From Deltaproteobacteria bacterium (lineage in GTDB: Bacteria > Myxococcota_A > Polyangia > Polyangiales > JADJMO01), in NCBI GenBank assembly GCA_025363655.1, contig JANYDK010000097.1, positions 1-64,000 of the forward strand: a stretch of 64,000 nucleotides of DNA, in the 5' to 3' direction. Of the stretch, positions 133 through 34,561 are shown piece after piece. Under the pieces are notes generated by a model. The model ran no database searches, had not been told where the DNA came from, and saw only the letters and a program-made list of their open reading frames with translations. Every line of letters begins with the position of its first letter. The first letter of the stretch is position 1. The position numbers were made by a program, and so were the translations under genes.

Positions 133-927
133 CTACATCTCGAACATCAGGCCGAGGTTCCAGGTCTTGTCACCGACGTACATCGCGCCGGTCTGACCGA
201 GGCCGGTGAGCTGGTGCACCGTGTACTCGGCGAAGATGTTGCTGTGCTTGACGCCTTGCTCGATGGCGAAGGTCTTCGCCGCTTGGCGATCGAGGAAGTC
301 GAGCACGAACTGCATGCCGATCGCGTACGAGTAGCCGAACGTGTGGCCGCGCCCGAGCGTGCCGTTGCTCGAGCGTGAGACGCCGGTGTCGCTCGCCGCC
401 GACCAGAAAGCGACCGAGGGGCCGATTTTCACGTACGGCACGAAGGGGATCTTGAAGTCGCGATCGAGCGTGTCGACGCGGAGGACGGCGAGGGCGTCGA
501 AGGGAAAGACCTTGAACGTCGTCTGTTCGACGCTTCCGTCGGTGCCGTCTTTGAACTGGGCGGTGCCCGACGCGGTCGTGTAACCGACGGCGCCGCCAAC
601 CGCCAGCGAACCGAAGTGCGGCACATGGAGGAACTGCCAGTCGACCTCGATGCTGAGCATGAAGCGCTTGTCGTCACCGAAGACCGATTGGTACGGCCCG
701 GCCGGCGTGCACTTCGTCGTGGTCGAGGAGGTGTGGCAGGGGATGGTTCCGACGGCGTCGTCGACGTTCGGATGGTAGGGGCCGAACCGCAGCTCGAAGG
801 CGAGATACGGATCTTTGACGATCTTCGACTTCGTTTTGGTCGGGCCGTCCCAAGCCGCGGCGGGGAGGGCGACGGTGGCGGTCGCCACGACGAGCGCGAG
901 GGCAGCGCCGATGCGGAGCGCGCTCAT
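133..927 (-). CDS. Exported outer-membrane-like protein, unknown function
   Basis: The 264-residue protein starts with a Sec signal peptide (about residues 1-25, hydrophobic core then Ala-Ala-Ala-Trp). The rest has alternating polar and aromatic stretches and ends in an aromatic-rich segment (last residues Met-Phe-Glu-Met), which suggests a small beta-barrel of the outer membrane. Two cysteines (about 64 and 73) may form a disulfide. The ATG overlaps the stop of the upstream gene by 4 bases, so the two are probably translated together and may work as a surface pair. I do not recognise a named family; the barrel call is an inference from signal peptide and strand pattern. Confidence 0.7.
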   Translation of the reverse strand: MSALRIGAALALVVATATVALPAAAWDGPTKTKSKIVKDPYLAFELRFGPYHPNVDDAVGTIPCHTSSTTTKCTPAGPYQSVFGDDKRFMLSIEVDWQFLHVPHFGSLAVGGAVGYTTASGTAQFKDGTDGSVEQTTFKVFPFDALAVLRVDTLDRDFKIPFVPYVKIGPSVAFWSAASDTGVSRSSNGTLGRGHTFGYSYAIGMQFVLDFLDRQAAKTFAIEQGVKHSNIFAEYTVHQLTGLGQTGAMYVGDKTWNLGLMFEM

Positions 928-2315
928 CGCGGGCCTCGCAGCGTGCGACGACGAACGAGCAGACCGAGCGCGCAGATGGCGAGCGTCGAGAACATGGTCA
1001 GCTGCGTCGCAGGTGCATAACTACAATATCCACCACCGGCCTTTCCGCCAGATTGCTCGTAGGCGTCGTAGAAGGTGCTCGTCGCCTTTGGTGTCGTGCA
1101 GACGATGTTCGAGAGGATGCCCGCGTTGCCCCAGGTGTCGGTCGCGGAGATGGCGATCGCGTACTGGTGATCGTTGATGAGACCGCTGATTTGCAGCTCG
1201 GTCGACGTCAGCGAGCCCGAGCGTCCGCCGTTGTACTGGTCTTGGAGGAGCGTGTTGGTCGGCAGCGCGCCGGCCTGCATGAACGCCGGGATCGTGTACG
1301 TGCAGTGCGAGCCCGTGCTGCTCCCGGCTTCGCTCGTGCTCGTCGAATCGGTCGCGACCGTGGTGTCGGTACCGATGGTGTCGGTGGCCGTGGTGTCGGC
1401 GGTCGACGTGTCGGCGTCCGGATCGGGAGTGGTGTCCGGCGCAGGCGTGGTGTCGGGCGCGGGGGTGGTGTCGACGGGGGGAGCCGTGTCGGGCGAGATG
1501 ACGCCCCCGTCGGTTGGGCCGGCGTCGCTCATCGCGGTGAGGTCGACGACGAACGCTTGGAAACTGGCCAGCGAAGGCACGGTGCCGACGGTGCCCCACG
1601 AAGCTTTTGCCAGGGTATTTCCCGCTCCGACGTCGATGGTCGGCGGCGTCGGACCGGAGAGATCGTAGCCCATCGGAATGAGGGATTCGAAGGTCGAGCC
1701 GTTCAGCACGTCGCTGCCGTTGAAGGGCAGGAGGCTCAAGTAGAACGTCTCCGGCTCCATGCTCGCGAGGGCGTTGCAGGCGATCGATCGATCGATCGCG
1801 TCGAGCGGAGCGTTCTGATCTCTCGAGACGACGTTCTCCGTGATGTCGCGCTTGGTGCCGTCGACGTTGATCGCCGCGATGAAGGCGACGTCGGGGATGA
1901 AGAGATCTTGCGAGGCGTTGAGCGAGGTGTACGGGATGGTCGCGATGTGGAAGCAGACCTTGGAGCCCGCGGTGCTGTTGCGCGTGGTCGGATCGGCGCA
2001 GCTGCCGTTGTCGGTGCGCGCCCAGATTTGGATGTCGGAGGGCGTCGTCCAGCCCGGTGTGAAGGTCGGGAAGGCGAACTTGAACCAGTAGCGCGTGCCG
2101 GTGCTGAGGCAGTCGGCGCGGTTGGTGCCCGAGTTCACTCCGGCCGTGCCGGTCGTCGGCGTCGCGGTGCGCGAGGTCCCCACACGGAGCGGGAAGCTCG
2201 CGGCCATGGCGATCTTCTGCGCGCTGGCGGTGCCGGCGGCGAGGAGGATGCCGAGCGCGATGGTGAACGCAAAGACGAACGGCAAGAGGAAGCGGACGGA
2301 GGATCGCGAATGCAT
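924..2315 (-). CDS. Exported protein with Asp/Thr/Pro-rich linker and MYXO-CTERM-like tail
   Basis: About 463 residues. I chose the ATG at 2315 because GAGGGAG lies just upstream and a signal peptide follows at once (Arg then a long hydrophobic run ending Ala-Ser-Ala). A globular domain of about 220 residues with conserved Cys and Trp is followed by a low-complexity linker rich in Asp, Thr and Pro (repeated P-A-P-D-T-T), a second small domain of fibronectin-like character, and a C-terminal tail with Tyr-Cys-Ser, a hydrophobic helix and an Arg-rich end. That tail matches the MYXO-CTERM sorting signal of myxobacteria, so the protein is probably surface-anchored or processed. The N-terminal domain resembles that of the gene at 54850-55956, so the two are paralogues. 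Function unknown. Confidence 0.75.
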   Translation of the reverse strand: MHSRSSVRFLLPFVFAFTIALGILLAAGTASAQKIAMAASFPLRVGTSRTATPTTGTAGVNSGTNRADCLSTGTRYWFKFAFPTFTPGWTTPSDIQIWARTDNGSCADPTTRNSTAGSKVCFHIATIPYTSLNASQDLFIPDVAFIAAINVDGTKRDITENVVSRDQNAPLDAIDRSIACNALASMEPETFYLSLLPFNGSDVLNGSTFESLIPMGYDLSGPTPPTIDVGAGNTLAKASWGTVGTVPSLASFQAFVVDLTAMSDAGPTDGGVISPDTAPPVDTTPAPDTTPAPDTTPDPDADTSTADTTATDTIGTDTTVATDSTSTSEAGSSTGSHCTYTIPAFMQAGALPTNTLLQDQYNGGRSGSLTSTELQISGLINDHQYAIAISATDTWGNAGILSNIVCTTPKATSTFYDAYEQSGGKAGGGYCSYAPATQLTMFSTLAICALGLLVRRRTLRGPR

Positions 2316-2492
2316 CGGGGGCTCCCTCAGCATTCGTCGTGCCACCCCTGTGGCGCAAGTCCGAAGCGCGATTCGTGCAGCAAAAATCGAGCGCCGACCC
2401 CGGCGCGACGCAGCGGCCTCTGCCACTTTGTCATTCACCTCGGGGTCGGCTGCCGATTTCGGGACTGCTCGTGCGTACCCGCAGGCTCTAGG

Positions 2493-3503
2493 TCACACGC
2501 CGCCGCCCTTGGTCTCGATGACCTGAATCGGCGCGCGCTTGATCACGCAGGTGACCTCGCTCGTCGCTTGGGTCTCGATCGACTTGCCGCCGAGCGAGCG
2601 GATGCTCGAGATGACGCCTTCGTTGACGTGCTTGTTGATGTTGGCGACCTCGGGGAAGAGCGCGGGGGTCAGCTCGGCGCCGCCGACGTTCATGGTCTTC
2701 ACCGACACGAGGCTCGTCTGCTCGATGGCGTTGCCCGGGACGCTGACCGTCACCTGGACCTTGATGGTCATCGCTTGGCCCGGCATCACGTGGAAGCCGG
2801 CCGGGTTCTTCGCGTGCTGCGCGCAGAAGCTGGGACCGAGCTCCGAGTTGAGCTTCACCTGGACGCTGAAGCTGTTGGAGTCGTTGCCGATCTTCGTGCA
2901 CTGGTTGGTGTTGGCGTCGTAGACGGTGCCCGCCGCACAGTTGGTGGCGACGCAGCCGCTGCCCTCGAACTTGGTGCCGGCGCCGCAGGTGAGCTCGTTG
3001 GGGACGCAGGAGCCGTCACGACCGCTGATGACGTAGGTCTGTCCGGCGGGGCAGCCGATGGACTGGCCGGCCTTGATCGAAACGCCGGCGCTCGCGGCGA
3101 CCGCGGCATCGCTGTCGGATTTGTTCTCGCACGCGCCGGTGTCGGCGTTCATGACCTGGCCGGCCGCGCAGACGACGGCGACGCAGCCACCGTTGGCGTA
3201 CTGATAGCCCTTGCCGCACGAGGCAGTGGCCTCTGCTTCGGTCTTGCACGCGCCGCCGAGGGTGACGAAGCCGGCCGCGCATTCGCAGGCGTTCTTCGCG
3301 TCGACCCACTTGCTGTTCTTGACGCACGAGTCGACGAGACACTCGTCGCTCTTCACGTTGCCGGCGTTGTCGGTCTTCTGCAGGCGAATCCAGCACTGGC
3401 CATTGGGACAGCCGGCCGCCGCGAGCGCGAGGCCGGCGAGGGCGGTGGCGCCGAGGAGACGAGCTGCGCGGGCGGACAGCGAAGAAGCGGAAAGAGAAGA
3501 CAT
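2493..3503 (-). CDS. Cysteine-rich lipoprotein, unknown function
   Basis: About 336 residues. The ATG at 3503 has GGAGG 8-12 bases upstream and opens a signal peptide that ends in the lipobox Ala-Ala-Ala-Gly-Cys (about residue 32). Residues 40-200 hold several Cys-Xn-Cys units in the pattern C-A-A-G...C, like the short disulfide-knotted repeats of myxobacterial surface proteins. The last 130 residues are Cys-poor and read as a beta-rich domain. It is encoded just upstream of, and in the same direction as, the two exported proteins at 924-2315 and 133-927, but 177 bases separate it from the next gene. Probably a cell-surface lipoprotein; no specific role can be assigned. Confidence 0.75.
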   Translation of the reverse strand: MSSLSASSLSARAARLLGATALAGLALAAAGCPNGQCWIRLQKTDNAGNVKSDECLVDSCVKNSKWVDAKNACECAAGFVTLGGACKTEAEATASCGKGYQYANGGCVAVVCAAGQVMNADTGACENKSDSDAAVAASAGVSIKAGQSIGCPAGQTYVISGRDGSCVPNELTCGAGTKFEGSGCVATNCAAGTVYDANTNQCTKIGNDSNSFSVQVKLNSELGPSFCAQHAKNPAGFHVMPGQAMTIKVQVTVSVPGNAIEQTSLVSVKTMNVGGAELTPALFPEVANINKHVNEGVISSIRSLGGKSIETQATSEVTCVIKRAPIQVIETKGGGV

Positions 3504-3651
3504 GGCAGAAGCCTCCGACGATGGGGTGCTGGGTTTTCCCGTGGAGAAAGACGAGAACAGACCCGTGCGATTCACTGCGCGCCCCTTCTAGCAGGGCCCT
3601 TGCGGGGGGCAATCGACGAGGGGGACGGCGAGGAGTAGGCTTCCGCCGCGC

Positions 3652-4239
3652 ATGTCTCGTCGTCTTCGACCACGGATTCCCGTCCTCGCGTTCGCCCTCG
3701 GCGTCGCGATGGTGTGCGGTGTCGTGGCCGGGTCCGTTTTCGCCGACCCGCCGAAGTCGGGGTCGCCCAATGCGCCGCCCAATGGGATGGCGACGGCGAA
3801 AGCCAAAGCGAGTGCTGCGCCGACGGTGGTCAAACCGCCGCACCCCCAGCTCGTCGCCATGATCCAAAAAGGTCTGTCGATGATCGAGCAGGCCAACAAA
3901 GACCTGGCGGTGACGAAGGACGAAGCGACCAAGGCGAACGCTGCCCTCAAGGCCGCGAACGCGCTCGTCAACAAGGGCCGTCACGCCATCAGCGAAGGCC
4001 AGAAGCTGCAGAAGCAAGGGCGCGAGGCGAAGAAGCACGGCAAGGACGCGCTCGGCGACGAGAAAATCGCCAAGGGCCAGAAGGCCATCGACGAGGGCGC
4101 GAAAGACGTCGCGACCGGCGTCGTGCAGGTCAAGGGCGCCGAGGCGCTCCTCAACGCGATCCACGCCCGCGCGCAGAAATCGCGCACGCAGCTCGAAGAA
4201 GGTCAGAAGCTCGTGAAGACCGCCGAAGGACAGATGTAG
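3652..4239 (+). CDS. Exported Lys/Ala-rich coiled-coil protein
   Basis: 195 residues. A signal peptide (residues 1-31, ending Phe-Ala-Asp) is followed by a short Pro-rich stretch and then about 130 residues of charged helix with regular Ala and Leu spacing and repeated Gly-Gln-Lys / Gly-Lys-Asp-Ala motifs, typical of a long coiled coil. No transmembrane segment follows the signal, so it is likely periplasmic or loosely surface-bound. It leads a run of three small plus-strand genes with gaps of 51 and 20 bases; the other two are membrane-anchored helical proteins, suggesting a shared envelope or stress role. Family not recognised. Confidence 0.75.
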   Translation: MSRRLRPRIPVLAFALGVAMVCGVVAGSVFADPPKSGSPNAPPNGMATAKAKASAAPTVVKPPHPQLVAMIQKGLSMIEQANKDLAVTKDEATKANAALKAANALVNKGRHAISEGQKLQKQGREAKKHGKDALGDEKIAKGQKAIDEGAKDVATGVVQVKGAEALLNAIHARAQKSRTQLEEGQKLVKTAEGQM

Positions 4240-4290
4240 ACTCGCCGAGCAGTCACCGAGTGCTTGGCAATGCCACGGAGGACCGAAGCG

Positions 4291-4680
4291 ATGAGCGTCA
4301 AGAAATACCTCTCCAACTTGCGCGACTATGACATGGACGACGTCCTCGGCACGGTCGGCCTGCAGCGCCGTAACACTGGCGAGTGGGTCTTCCCCATGCT
4401 CGCCGGGCTCGGCGCTGGACTCGCGATCGGCGCTGGACTGGCGTTCTTCCTCACGCCGTACAAGGGCGCCGAGGCCCGCGAGAAGGTGAAGAAGGGCGCG
4501 AGCGACGCGCAGAAGGCCCTCTCCGACAAGGTGTCGGTGCTCTCCGACAAAGTCTCGTCGCTCGTCGGCGAAAAGGGCGAAAAGGGCGACAAGAAGGCCG
4601 CCGCGGGCGATCACGACGACGCCACCGATGGCCCCATCGCCGCCGACGTGCCGGCGAACACCAGCAACCGTAGCTACTGA
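4291..4680 (+). CDS. YtxH-like membrane protein
   Basis: 129 residues from the ATG at 4291, chosen because GGAGG sits 10 bases upstream (the in-frame ATGs at 4264 and 4270 have no such site). Residues 30-55 form one glycine-rich membrane helix, followed directly by the Thr-Pro-Tyr-Lys-Gly motif and a basic amphipathic helix. This is the layout of YtxH-type (gas vesicle / general-stress) proteins. The tail is a Lys/Asp-rich coil. It sits between a coiled-coil exported protein and a DUF883-like protein in one likely operon. The function of the family is poorly known; a role in envelope stress is inference. Confidence 0.75.
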   Translation: MSVKKYLSNLRDYDMDDVLGTVGLQRRNTGEWVFPMLAGLGAGLAIGAGLAFFLTPYKGAEAREKVKKGASDAQKALSDKVSVLSDKVSSLVGEKGEKGDKKAAAGDHDDATDGPIAADVPANTSNRSY

Positions 4681-4700
4681 AGCTACCGATTGGACGCGTG

Positions 4701-4937
4701 ATGACGAACGGCAACGGAACGACCAAGGCCACGGGCCCCGACCTCGGCCACGTGCTCGAGATGGCCGAACGCGCGCGCGAGAAGGTCGGCGAGGCTGCGG
4801 AACGCGCGCAACACGCCGTCCGCAAGGCCGACAATCTTCTCGTCGCGAAGGTGCGCGAGAATCCGATTCTCGTGCTCAGCGTCGCTGTCGGCGTGGGGTA
4901 TGTGCTCGGACGGCTCGTCTCGCGCTTCGGGCGCTGA
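4701..4937 (+). CDS. DUF883-like (ElaB/YqjD type) C-tail-anchored protein
   Basis: 78 residues. Residues 15-50 are an amphipathic helix rich in Ala, Glu, Lys and Arg, followed by Glu-Asn-Pro, one short membrane helix (about 55-72) and a final Arg-Phe-Gly-Arg. This is the pattern of the ElaB/YqjD/DUF883 family, inner-membrane proteins that bind ribosomes in Escherichia coli stationary phase. ATG at 4701 is preferred over the GTG at 4698. It lies 20 bases after the YtxH-like gene and is the last of the run; a strong hairpin follows at 4975-5009. The ribosome-binding role is known only for the enterobacterial relatives. Confidence 0.7.
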   Translation: MTNGNGTTKATGPDLGHVLEMAERAREKVGEAAERAQHAVRKADNLLVAKVRENPILVLSVAVGVGYVLGRLVSRFGR

Positions 4938-4974
4938 GCGAGACTGACGAGAGACTGACGGTCACACTGGCTGG

Positions 4975-5009
4975 CTTTCACTTCGTGCTGAAGAGGCACG
5001 AAGTGAAAG
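4975..5009. terminator. Perfect 14-bp stem hairpin between convergent genes
   Basis: The arms 4975-4988 and 4996-5009 are perfect inverted repeats around a 7-base loop. The hairpin lies between the stop of the DUF883-like gene (4937, plus strand) and the stop of the DUF72 gene (5023, minus strand), where a two-way terminator would be expected. There is no clear T-run, so it may act in a Rho-assisted way or as an mRNA 3'-end stabiliser. Confidence 0.6.
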
Positions 5010-5022
5010 ACCGGCTCTGCTT

Positions 5023-5673
5023 TCAGAGCTTGAGCAGCTTCTTCAGGCGCTTGGCGTCGGCGAACATGTCGACGTTGGTGAAGACCCAGACGCTGCTCTC
5101 GTGCTTCGTCGCTTTGACGATTTCGGCGAGCTTCTCGAGGGCCGGATCTTCGTAGCGCGACTTGTGACCCGCGGGTCCGGGCAGACGGTAGTAACCGAAC
5201 TTCGCCTTGTAGGTGCCGAGCGAGAGCGGATCGCGTGAAGCGACGGCCCCGGCTTCGAGCGCGACGTTGAGCGCCTCGTCGGGATCCCAATTCGGCGGCG
5301 CTTCCCAGACGACTCGATCGAAGCGCTTGCGCACGCCGCCGAGGAAGTCCTTCACGACGGCGCGGTTCGTCTTGTTCGAGGGAAAATCGGGCGGCGCGAG
5401 GAAGACGACCGTGCGCGAGCCGAGCTCGTCGGCGACCTCACCGAGCATGTTGAGCGCGGTCTCGACGACCTTGCCGTCGCGGAAGCCTTCCTGTCCGACC
5501 TCGCGCGGTCCGAGCAAGGCGAACTCGAAGCCCTCGGGCCCCTGGCGCTTCCATCGTCCGAGAGTTCCGCGTCCAGGGGAGGAGAAGTTGGTCTCCTGCA
5601 CCTCGACGAACATGAACTCCTTGACGTAGCGGGTCAGCGGGACAGCGAAGCCCGCGCAGCCGACGGTGATCAT
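5023..5673 (-). CDS. DUF72 family protein (YecE-like)
   Basis: 216 residues, about the usual length of the family (220-260). The start Met-Ile-Thr-Val-Gly-Cys-Ala-Gly-Phe and the motif Phe-Val-Glu-Val-Gln-Glu-Thr-Asn-Phe (about 22-32) followed by Trp-Lys-Arg-Gln-Gly-Pro-Glu-Gly-Phe-Glu-Phe are the hallmarks of the DUF72 TIM-barrel family; most members start with a Gly-Thr-Ser/Cys-Gly-(Trp/Phe) strand. The conserved Tyr-Tyr-Arg-Leu (about 155) and the late Val-Phe-Thr-Asn-Val-Asp motif are present. Soluble, no signal peptide. The biochemical role of DUF72 is not established. It lies 42 bases downstream of obg on the same strand and could be co-transcribed. Confidence 0.9.
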   Translation of the reverse strand: MITVGCAGFAVPLTRYVKEFMFVEVQETNFSSPGRGTLGRWKRQGPEGFEFALLGPREVGQEGFRDGKVVETALNMLGEVADELGSRTVVFLAPPDFPSNKTNRAVVKDFLGGVRKRFDRVVWEAPPNWDPDEALNVALEAGAVASRDPLSLGTYKAKFGYYRLPGPAGHKSRYEDPALEKLAEIVKATKHESSVWVFTNVDMFADAKRLKKLLKL

Positions 5674-5715
5674 GCGGGGGGCAAGCTAGCACGGCCCTCC
5701 GCGCGCGCGGTCAAA

Positions 5716-7089
5716 TCACCGTTTGGAGCTTTTTTTCTTGGGTTTTCGCGAACTAGCCGTGGTTTTGCCACGTTTCGCCGGCTTCTTCGCGGTCTTCCCG
5801 GTGGCCTTTTTCACGGCCCGTTGCGGCGCGGCCTTCTTCGCCGGTCGCTTCACGGGTCGCTTGGCAGGCGCTGGTTTCTTCTTCGCGGTCTTCGCGATGG
5901 GCTTCTTCGCGACCGACTTCTTCGGTGCGGGCTTCTTCGAAGACGACTTCTTCGCCGAGGATTTCTTCCTCGCCGCCGGCTTGGTCGTGCGGGCTGCGGG
6001 CTTCTTCTTCGCGATCGGCGGCGCGACGGGCGGCGGCGGCTCGGCTTCGGCGTCGTCTTCTTCCGGGCGATGACCGCGGAGCAGGTGGTAGAGATCGTTG
6101 GCCAGCTCGGGGAGCCCGGAGCCGGTCGCTGCGCTGATCAAACGGAGCTTGATTTTCCGCTTGGCGAAGGCTTTTTGGAGATCGACGAAGGCGTCTTGCG
6201 TCTCGGGGATGTCGCCCTTGGAGATGGCGACGACCATCGGCTTGTTGGCGAGCTCGGGCGCGAAGGTGCGCAGCTCGTGCATCAGCGCGTCGAAGTCGGC
6301 CAGCGGCGAGCGGCCCTCTTCGCGGAGCTCGTCGGTGGGCGGGGCGATGAGATGGAGCAGCGCGCGACAGCGCTCGACGTGCTTGAGGAAGCGCGTGCCG
6401 ATGCCGCGACCTTCGCTGGCGCCGGGGATGAGCCCGGGGATGTCGGCCATGACGAAGCTGGCGCTGCTCGAACGGCCGCCGATTTTCACCACGCCGAGGT
6501 GCGGCTGCAGCGTCGTGAAGGGGTAGTCGGCGATCTTCGGACGCGCGCGCGACATGGTGGCGACCAGCGTCGACTTGCCGACGTTGGGGAAGCCGAGGAG
6601 GCCGACGTCTGCCATGACCTTGAGCTCGAGGCGCACGGCGCGCTCTTGTCCGGGCTCGCCCGGCTCGGCGCGGCGGGGTGCGCGATCGAAGGGCGTGGCG
6701 AAGTGGATGTTGCCGCGGCCGCCTTTACCGCCTTGGGCGACGACGTGCTTCTCGCCGTGCGCGGACACGTCGGCGAGGATCTCGCCGCTGTCGCCTTCGA
6801 AGACCTGCGTGCCGATCGGTACCTTCACGAGGAGGTCTTCGCCGTGGCGGCCGTATTGGTCTTTGCCGCGACCGTGCTCGCCGCGTTGGGCGGTGAGCGT
6901 GCGCGAGTTGGCGAGGTCGAGGAGCGAGGTGCGGCCCTCGTCTCCGATGAACACCACCGAGCCGCCGGCAGCACCGTCGCCTCCGGCGGGGCCGCCGAAC
7001 GGAACGAATTTTTCGCGGCGAAAGGCGACGCAGCCGTTGCCGCCGTCTCCCGCCTTCACGCGCAGTCGCACCGAATCGACGAACTTCAT
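5716..7089 (-). CDS. obg: Obg/CgtA GTPase with Lys/Ala/Pro-rich C-terminal tail
   Basis: 457 residues. Residues 1-158 are the glycine-rich Obg fold (repeated G-D-G-G-N-G and G-G-K-G-G-R-G-N motifs), followed by the G domain: G1 at about 166-174 (Gly-Phe-Pro-Asn-Val-Gly-Lys-Ser-Thr), G3 Asp-Ile-Pro-Gly at 216-219, and G5 Ser-Ala-Ala at 319-321. The G4 site reads Ser-Lys-Gly-Asp (290-293) where Asn-Lys-x-Asp is normal, which could change base recognition. After residue 340 there is no OCT domain; instead about 100 residues rich in Lys, Ala, Pro and Ser resemble histone H1 tails. Obg acts in 50S ribosome assembly and stringent control. It follows xseB by 59 bases. Confidence 0.95.
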   Translation of the reverse strand: MKFVDSVRLRVKAGDGGNGCVAFRREKFVPFGGPAGGDGAAGGSVVFIGDEGRTSLLDLANSRTLTAQRGEHGRGKDQYGRHGEDLLVKVPIGTQVFEGDSGEILADVSAHGEKHVVAQGGKGGRGNIHFATPFDRAPRRAEPGEPGQERAVRLELKVMADVGLLGFPNVGKSTLVATMSRARPKIADYPFTTLQPHLGVVKIGGRSSSASFVMADIPGLIPGASEGRGIGTRFLKHVERCRALLHLIAPPTDELREEGRSPLADFDALMHELRTFAPELANKPMVVAISKGDIPETQDAFVDLQKAFAKRKIKLRLISAATGSGLPELANDLYHLLRGHRPEEDDAEAEPPPPVAPPIAKKKPAARTTKPAARKKSSAKKSSSKKPAPKKSVAKKPIAKTAKKKPAPAKRPVKRPAKKAAPQRAVKKATGKTAKKPAKRGKTTASSRKPKKKSSKR

Positions 7090-32579: not shown

Positions 32580-33680
32580 TCACCGTCGCGCCGCGCAGGT
32601 CATCGTCGCGAGCTGTTCTCGGATGCGGACCACCTCCGCCAGCACCACCGCGGGCAGCGCAGCATCGACGCGTAGCTGCGCGAACCCCGGCACGCCCTCG
32701 AAGGTGCGATCGGGCGCGAGGAGCGCGACGATCGTCATCACGTCGTCGTCACGACCGAGGACGCGACGGACCGCGACGCCGAGCTGGGTCGTGCGCAACG
32801 CATCGACGAGCGCGCAGACCATCCCGCGGTGCTCGGGCGACTCGGCGTCGTGCGGCTCGATCAGTTTCCGCAGCTCGGGAGGCAGCGTGGCGAAGAAGAC
32901 GCGCAGCGCATCGTCGACCGAGGGAGCAATGCGCACCTGGTCGCCGAGGCCATCGAACGCGCGCGCTATTTGCGGCCACGTCGAGGACTGCGGCGAGAGC
33001 CGATACGCCAGCGGCGGATGCTCTCCGCGACGAAGCGTGATCCATCCGCGCGATCGGCCCGTCGCCGGATCGTGCGGCTGCATCGCTTCGAAGAGCATGG
33101 AGACCGGCGCCCAATGCGGCGGATACTTGAACCGCGCGACGTCGAGCACGAGGGCGAGATCGCGCGCGCGATGGAAGCCGGCGATCGTCGAGAAGTGACC
33201 GTCGCCCGTCTGACCGAGGACGCGCCGGGTGTAGGCGATCGCGAGGACCTCGCCCTCGGCCGCGCGCACCGACGACTCGATGGCGGCTCGAAACGCGTCG
33301 ATCGAAGCTTCGCTGGCGCGGGTCTCGCTCGCGGTGGCGCCGTTGCATCGAGCGAGGCAAGCGAACTGATCGAACGTGATGCCCTTCACCTTCACCTCGT
33401 CGAGCGGCGCGCAACAGTCGAGGAGCTCTTCCCCGTACCAGCGCCATGGGCCCTTCCACATGCGGCCGGGATCGATGGCGAGCGCGTTGAGCGCCACCAC
33501 CAGCGTCGCGAGGCCGCAGAAGGCAGGCTCTTGCTGGGTGTGGAACTGCTCGGCTTGGGCGAAGTAGCCCTCCATCGTGCCGGCGGCGAGCGCTTCGCGG
33601 AAGAGGAGACGGCCTTCGGCGCAGGCGAAGGGGATTTGCGAGTCGGGGAGTGGGCGGCGGTAGAAGCTCGGCGCGGTCAT
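32580..33680 (-). CDS. Phytochelatin synthase, plant-type with C-terminal domain
   Basis: 366 residues. Residues 1-222 match the papain-like catalytic domain almost position for position with the plant enzymes: Gln-Gln-Glu-Pro-Ala-Phe-Cys55-Gly, Trp-Lys-Gly-Pro-Trp-Arg-Trp (75-81), Leu-Asp-Cys-Cys (87-90), Gly-Asp-Gly-His162-Phe-Ser, and Leu-Asp180-Val-Ala-Arg-Phe-Lys-Tyr-Pro-Pro-His-Trp. Cys55, His162 and Asp180 are the expected triad. Residues 223-366 resemble the plant C-terminal domain, including its final Glu-Val-Val-x-Ile-Arg-Glu-Gln-Leu helix, but a Cys-rich stretch present in plants is missing. Bacterial relatives usually have only the catalytic part. It would join gamma-Glu-Cys units from glutathione into metal-chelating phytochelatins. 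Follows a cupin lipoprotein by 37 bases. Confidence 0.95.
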   Translation of the reverse strand: MTAPSFYRRPLPDSQIPFACAEGRLLFREALAAGTMEGYFAQAEQFHTQQEPAFCGLATLVVALNALAIDPGRMWKGPWRWYGEELLDCCAPLDEVKVKGITFDQFACLARCNGATASETRASEASIDAFRAAIESSVRAAEGEVLAIAYTRRVLGQTGDGHFSTIAGFHRARDLALVLDVARFKYPPHWAPVSMLFEAMQPHDPATGRSRGWITLRRGEHPPLAYRLSPQSSTWPQIARAFDGLGDQVRIAPSVDDALRVFFATLPPELRKLIEPHDAESPEHRGMVCALVDALRTTQLGVAVRRVLGRDDDVMTIVALLAPDRTFEGVPGFAQLRVDAALPAVVLAEVVRIREQLATMTCAARR

Positions 33681-33717: not shown

Positions 33718-34179
33718 CTACGGCAAGGGTCGAAACTGCTCGTCTTCCACGCGCGTCGTGTACGCGATCACGAACCGGAGCGCGTGGTCGGGGCTCGGGT
33801 TGCGGAAGAATCGATGCGGTATGTCGGCCGGATCGACGAAGCCCTCGCCTTCGTGGACCGTCGTGATCGGCTCGTCGCCGAACGCCGATTCGAAGCTTCC
33901 TTCGACGACCCAACCGATGCCGACGGCCGGGTGCACGTGCGGGTTCGCCTTCGCCAGCGGCGGATATTCGACGAGGTACAGGCGCGTTTCGTAACCTGGC
34001 TCGTGCGCGGGCTGACGCCGAACGAGCGTGCGACGGATGGTGGTGCTCGCCTTCTCGGTTGCGAGAGGCGCGGCTGGAGGGGGTTCGGAGGCGTGCGTGG
34101 CTCCGCATCCGACGAGGCTCGCGACGAGCGTCGGAAAGACGATGGAAGGTGCGGACGAGAACCAGGTGCGGTGAGCCAC
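33718..34179 (-). CDS. Cupin-domain lipoprotein
   Basis: About 153 residues from GTG at 34179. The signal peptide ends in Leu-Val-Gly-Cys, a good lipobox. Residues 60-150 form a single cupin: Pro-His-Val-His-Pro-Ala-Val-Gly (metal-binding His pair), Gly-Glu-Gly and Pro-His-Arg-Phe-Phe, followed by Phe-Val-Ile-Ala-Tyr. A small metal-binding or sensory protein facing the periplasm is likely. It lies 37 bases upstream of the phytochelatin synthase on the same strand and may be its operon partner. Longer frames reaching 34332 lack a signal peptide. Confidence 0.8.
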   Translation of the reverse strand: MAHRTWFSSAPSIVFPTLVASLVGCGATHASEPPPAAPLATEKASTTIRRTLVRRQPAHEPGYETRLYLVEYPPLAKANPHVHPAVGIGWVVEGSFESAFGDEPITTVHEGEGFVDPADIPHRFFRNPSPDHALRFVIAYTTRVEDEQFRPLP

Positions 34180-34318
34180 GGTGCGTAGTGGCCCTAGATG
34201 GCCGGAAGTTACAGTGCGGTTGGTGAAAGACAACTTCCAGCGCGTTGCACGATGCGGAGCAGATCTCGGTCGGTGAAGAAGGGCGCTCGCCGCCATCATG
34301 TGCGACGTTGAATTCCCC

Positions 34319-34561
34319 ATGCCGCACGTCATCGTGAAGCTTTACGCAGGTAGATCCGAAGAACAAAAACAGCGTGTCGCCGATGCCGTGCAGAAGGCCG
34401 TGATGTCGACGCTCGACTTCGCCGACGCGGCCGTGTCGGTCGCGATCGAAGAGTTCGCGCCGGAGCGATGGGCCGAGGACGTCTACAAGCCCGACATCCT
34501 CGAGAGCGCCGACAGGCTTTACAAGAAGCCTGGCTACAATCCATTCGCTGCACGCAAGTGA
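34319..34561 (+). CDS. Tautomerase family protein (4-oxalocrotonate tautomerase-like)
   Basis: 80 residues from the ATG at 34319, followed directly by Pro2, which becomes the N-terminal catalytic proline once Met is removed. The typical Pro-His-Val-Ile-Val-Lys-Leu, Arg-Ser-Glu-Glu-Gln-Lys-Gln and Val-Ser-Val-Ala-Ile-Glu-Glu-Phe-Ala-Pro segments are present. Members of this superfamily move double bonds in oxo acids or dehalogenate, and the real substrate here is unknown. The upstream ATG at 34298 is rejected, since only the shorter form exposes Pro. Divergent from the cupin gene. Confidence 0.88.
   Translation: MPHVIVKLYAGRSEEQKQRVADAVQKAVMSTLDFADAAVSVAIEEFAPERWAEDVYKPDILESADRLYKKPGYNPFAARK

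Follow-up and report, generated by a model that had tools for sequence, protein, structure and literature searches.

A two-domain E-type phytochelatin synthase in Myxococcota with a plant-like C-terminal tail and probable membership in an old bacterial branch

Resistance to metals through phytochelatin-type chemistry is generally regarded as a trait of plants, algae, fungi, and worms. A phytochelatin synthase (PCS) gene in a 64-kb stretch of myxobacterial DNA (here called the window) raises the question of whether a bacterium can carry the two-domain enzyme of plants and, if so, where the gene came from. The gene (positions 32580 to 33680, minus strand) is an ATG-initiated ORF of 366 codons plus stop, and a profile search of the 9.0-Mb genome found no other PF05023 gene. 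Our reading, to which we assign a probability of roughly two in three, is that it encodes a genuine two-domain E-type PCS native to Myxococcota, which would synthesize phytochelatins from glutathione with a tail that adjusts the metal response, and that its branch of the family is bacterial and old.

The catalytic domain was examined with the PF05023 profile and by alignment to AtPCS1 of plants. Residues 6 to 213 (33042 to 33665, minus strand) match the profile from position 1 to position 210 of 210, at 275 to 277 bits (cutoff, 24.9). Alignment identified Cys55 as the nucleophile (AtPCS1 Cys56; codon 33516 to 33518), with His162 (33195 to 33197) and Asp180 (33141 to 33143) as the other catalytic residues, all on the minus strand and invariant in 18 relatives. 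The motifs WKGPWRW (residues 75 to 81), LDCC (87 to 90), and VARFKYPPHW (181 to 190) lie within one residue of their AtPCS1 numbering; the preliminary description of this DNA had reported the triad and these motifs at nearly plant positions, and the alignment agrees. The motif ahead of the catalytic Cys is QQEPAFC, and two Cys pairs are present on the minus strand: Cys89-Cys90 (33411 to 33416; AtPCS1 Cys90/Cys91) and Cys108-x3-Cys112 (33345 to 33359; AtPCS1 Cys109/Cys113). An E/D-type motif together with CC and CxxxC pairs has been used to define E-type enzymes, and the CC pair is absent from the Alr0975-type short group (PMC11314372); by motif and by both pairs, the window protein is E-type.

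The second-substrate site was compared in the same way. Mutagenesis of AtPCS1 assigned Arg152, Lys185, Gln50, Gln157, and Tyr55 to this site (PMC3855540). All are kept in the window protein except Tyr55, which is Phe, a substitution with which AtPCS1 retained partial activity (PMC3855540). These residues are no proof of synthase activity, because Nostoc NsPCS, whose phytochelatin output is little or none, has most of them too (PMC3855540, PMC11314372). The structure predicted for the window protein (mean pLDDT, 82) has a catalytic fold that matches the Alr0975 structures 6tho and 2bu3 (Foldseek E, about 1e-13). Any member of the family should give such a match, so it carries no information on which of the two branches the protein belongs to; a plant PCS structure was not found in the PDB up to an E value of 1.

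The remaining 149 residues (218 to 366; 32583 to 33029, minus strand) form the C-terminal tail. Predicted alone, the tail is all-helical with a mean pLDDT of 91, and it ends in a predicted long helix (residues 344 to 365; 32586 to 32651, minus strand) that contains the invariant residues E349 and Q356. Among PDB structures, no fold relative of the tail was found at E values below 0.001, and the window tail had no PF09328 match even at an E value of 10. Since pairwise comparison (blastp and phmmer) of the window and AtPCS1 tails gave only a weak match, the tails were compared by profiles. Against a profile built from 17 bacterial tails, with E values scaled to 177,635 PDB sequences, the AtPCS1 tail scored 76.3 bits (E = 3e-20) and the best unrelated PDB chain scored 17.1 bits. 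A profile of myxobacterial tails only gave 54.6 bits for the AtPCS1 tail, compared with 8.7 bits for the best of 1,000 shuffles, and hhalign of bacterial against plant tails gave P values of about 1e-11 (all bacteria) and 1.6e-8 (myxobacteria only). PF09328 itself (cutoff, 25 bits) scored in the cyanobacterial relatives L009 (27.6 bits), L020 (41.2 bits), L065 (29.4 bits), and L102 (26.6 bits), as well as in 1 of 146 cyanobacterial genomes. Judged by these profiles, the bacterial tail is homologous to the plant C-terminal domain, because the plant tail reaches 76 bits against 17 for an unrelated chain and because cyanobacterial relatives pass the PF09328 cutoff.

The sequences taken to be AtPCS1, fission yeast PCS, and nematode PCS were checked with Pfam profiles. 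The AtPCS1 sequence scored 303 bits with PF05023 and 302 bits with PF09328, both profiles being covered nearly end to end; the yeast and nematode sequences were compared with PF05023 only, which they matched, and the yeast tail was too weak to use. The claim for the tail does not depend solely on the AtPCS1 sequence used here, since several cyanobacterial relatives are found by PF09328 directly.

The plant protein differs in carrying an additional Cys-rich stretch of ∼90 residues, which interrupts the aligned region between its two halves. Bacteria lack this stretch or have a short version of it, and the window tail contains only two Cys residues, C289 and C362. Both a plant-like end of about 140 residues, including the final helix, and the absence of the Cys-rich stretch had been proposed beforehand, and both are borne out here. 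In seven sequence pairs, dN/dS was 0.20 to 0.92 for the tail and 0.05 to 0.28 for the catalytic part, with the tail below 1 in every pair; these ratios indicate that the tail changes more quickly than the catalytic part, under weak purifying selection.

The plant-type character that the preliminary description had staked on a phylogeny of plants, protists, and bacteria was upheld. In a tree of 64 catalytic domains, including the three rows taken as eukaryote PCS, the Alr0975-like and E-type branches were split with support of 100/99, and the window protein, which has a PF09328-like tail, fell not with the short Alr0975-type enzymes but in the E-type branch, with plant, fungal, and nematode PCS. 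There it is sister to the sequence L002 (100/99), within a clade of 22 myxobacterial sequences (98/97). That clade contains short forms at four places: L025, L041, L035, and a set of seven. They are true short forms, because no hidden tail was found in another frame downstream of L025, L035, L041, and others. The fewest tail-state changes over the E-type rows is five; the tail has been lost or gained repeatedly in an old bacterial branch. One E-type PCS (L028, positions 1471 to 2415) continues for ∼89 residues past the catalytic domain and scores 20 bits with the tail profile, a possible intermediate of tail loss.

Tailed and short forms were then counted across genomes. PF05023 was present in 37 of 379 Myxococcota genomes, and among 20 myxobacterial E-type loci, 11 were tailed (one of them shortened) and 9 were short. 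In Cyanobacteria, PF05023 was present in 18 of 146 genomes, and four of the loci fetched were tailed E-type; the only clear E-type enzyme found among 398 Pseudomonadota was that of the Paucibacter genome used as a center, a short form. When 84,980 species were scanned with exact 8-residue patterns, a method that passes over divergent copies, E-type loci were found solely in Myxococcota, Cyanobacteria, and Paucibacter, setting aside records whose titles seem mistaken. One such title is that of L021 (CAMCWU010000151.1), a bin named Klebsiella pneumoniae that carries a myxobacterial-type PCS. No phage or virus copies were found. The initial view that known bacterial relatives generally stop after the catalytic domain is no longer current: tailed cyanobacterial enzymes are reported in PMC11314372, and many tailed forms were found here.

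No metal-resistance neighbor of the window gene was found in the 64 kb by P1B-ATPase and CzcA searches or by a Pfam scan of neighbors. A cupin-domain gene (33718 to 34332, minus strand) ends 37 bp before the PCS start and may be cotranscribed with it. A conserved operon of PCS with the adjacent cupin gene or a DUF1993 gene was considered and rejected, because neither gene was found beside PCS in any relative. The genome encodes GshB (355 bits, above cutoff) and a GCS2-type glutamate-cysteine ligase, and the cell can thus make glutathione.

Some relatives of the gene have other neighbors. P1B heavy-metal ATPases lie within a few kb of PCS at eight Nostocales loci and at the more distant L020, and the Nostocales clusters combine copper-translocating (TIGR01511) and heavy-metal (TIGR01525) ATPases with CopM and a cupredoxin. 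Two copies are plasmid borne (Aulosira laxa AP018310 and Scytonema AP018264), and the Aulosira plasmid is conjugative according to PLSDB (MOBP/MPF_T). Tailed PCS genes lying between or next to P1B copper/heavy-metal ATPase genes, with CopM and cupredoxin, were observed at L102 (AP018310.1, 122565 to 133503), L009, L010, L012, L014, L016 to L018, and L020, an arrangement that may represent a mobile copper-resistance phytochelatin module. In one myxobacterium, a Myxococcales bin (L024, identical to L117; L024 positions 288 to 6086), a CusB/CzcB-like adaptor gene is followed by a CusA/CzcA pump gene (TIGR00914, 1,012.7 bits; cutoff, 701) and, 20 bp on, by a tailed PCS gene; the three genes probably form an operon. 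This lineage is the only one of ∼20 myxobacterial E-type loci with a metal-resistance neighbor. Two further arrangements were seen: at L023 (2516 to 3904), an ArsB/CitMHS-type transporter gene, with an ArsB match under the NCBIfam cutoff, precedes a tailed PCS gene in the same orientation, and in two related myxobacterial bins (L004 and L019), the PCS gene overlaps at its end with a methionine sulfoxide reductase (MsrB) gene.

A mechanism can be proposed for the window protein. Cys55, activated by His162 and Asp180, would attack glutathione, releasing glycine and leaving a gamma-Glu-Cys acyl-enzyme, a reaction established for the family. A second thiol, ideally metal-bis-glutathione, held in a cavity formed by Gln49, Glu51, Phe54, Arg152, Gln157, Phe184, Lys185, and Tyr186, would then accept gamma-Glu-Cys to yield phytochelatin. 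In liverwort PCS, the tail limits overactivation by metal through Cys residues (PMC7586750). Any regulation by the window tail must use another contact, because the plant Cys residues are missing here; the helical tail may stabilize the enzyme and tune its metal response through packing, without ligation of metal by Cys.

The acceptor in the second step might instead be water. The protein would then act mainly as a carboxypeptidase on glutathione or glutathione conjugates, producing gamma-Glu-Cys for thiol turnover or xenobiotic breakdown, with the tail serving only as a stabilizer. Alr0975, with the same triad, mainly hydrolyzes glutathione according to a passage in PMC11314372 that cites Harada 2004, and both the lack of metal neighbors at the window gene and the absence of the tail from several E-type lineages would suit such a role. 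The window protein, however, lies in the E-type branch (100/99) and has retained E51, a marker residue, along with both Cys pairs (CC and CxxxC), and its relatives occur in copper and CzcA-type metal clusters. We consider a mainly hydrolytic enzyme rather unlikely and retain synthesis of phytochelatin as the preferred reading.

The origin of the gene was addressed by constrained trees. The preliminary description had offered either an inter-kingdom transfer or an ancestral bacterial form. A recent transfer from a plant or alga into a myxobacterium, after which the Cys-rich insert was lost, would account for catalytic motifs highly like those of plants, and the plant does group with the tailed bacteria against the fungus, the nematode, and Paucibacter (91/84, not starred). 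Such a recent transfer is nevertheless very unlikely, because a pair consisting of the window protein and AtPCS1 alone is rejected (AU test, P = 0.007) and the window protein is nested among 22 myxobacterial sequences. Cyanobacteria also carry the same compact tail, the gene is a single continuous ORF, its third-position GC (0.85) equals that of neighboring genes, and the local GC content is that of the rest of the window. Neither the three eukaryotes as one clade (P = 0.35) nor the plant with the 22 myxobacterial rows (P = 0.29) was rejected. We read the PCS gene as part of a long-standing bacterial branch that also includes cyanobacterial enzymes, not as a recent acquisition from plants; of the earlier alternatives, a very old transfer and an ancestral bacterial form would each be compatible with these trees. 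A further step is more tentative and, in our judgment, somewhat doubtful, namely, that the ancestral two-domain PCS was the compact tailed form now found in Myxococcota and Cyanobacteria, carried partly on metal-resistance plasmids, and that land plants inherited the core of its tail, into which the Cys-rich insert came later.

That the gene is a contaminant of the assembly, or that its tail is helical by chance and has no relation to PF09328, might be read from the lack of a PF09328 match in the window tail alone and from the many relatives that are metagenome bins, but it is scarcely credible given a 72% identical tailed copy in a genome of the same family (G241), the even composition of the contig, and the 76-bit profile match to the plant tail against 17 bits for the best unrelated PDB chain.

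Among known systems, the E-type PCS of cyanobacteria (e.g., Nostoc punctiforme WP_190951078, 397 aa; PMC11314372) is similar to the window protein in two-domain layout, length class, E-type motif, CC and CxxxC pairs, and a compact tail that lacks the plant Cys-rich insert, with 41 to 50% full-length identity. The window protein differs in its phylum, its shorter tail (149 versus about 180 residues), and the absence of metal-ATPase neighbors. With AtPCS1, the window protein has in common the triad and other catalytic motifs, the residues of the second site, and a homologous core of the C-terminal domain with its final helix; the window protein lacks the ∼90-residue insert, has Phe in place of Tyr55, and shows no close evolutionary pairing with it. 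Alr0975/NsPCS (2bu3, 6tho) shares the catalytic fold and triad but falls in the separate branch (100/99), has N before the Cys where the window protein has E, and lacks CC, CxxxC, and the tail. All cyanobacterial PCS were said in 2020 to lack the C-terminal domain (PMC7586750), and tailed cyanobacterial PCS (∼397 aa) were described in 2024, in a paper that makes no mention of plasmids, ATPases, or myxobacteria (PMC11314372). In the open literature searched, a few papers mention PCS together with Myxococcota or Deltaproteobacteria, but by title or abstract none has this as its subject. What is new is the occurrence and diversity of tailed forms in Myxococcota, the profile-level homology of the tail, and the metal-efflux contexts; the kind of enzyme itself is known in cyanobacteria.

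What the plant C-terminal domain does is under debate. A natural enzyme that has the core of this domain without the Cys-rich insert separates two proposed roles, stability and regulation on the one hand and Cys-based metal sensing on the other. The finding of tailed PCS in another bacterial phylum, with heavy-metal pumps as neighbors of some, suggests phytochelatin-type metal resistance in bacteria. If the compact tailed enzyme is indeed the ancestral bacterial form, metal sensing by Cys ligation would have been added late, in plants, to a helical regulatory domain of greater age.
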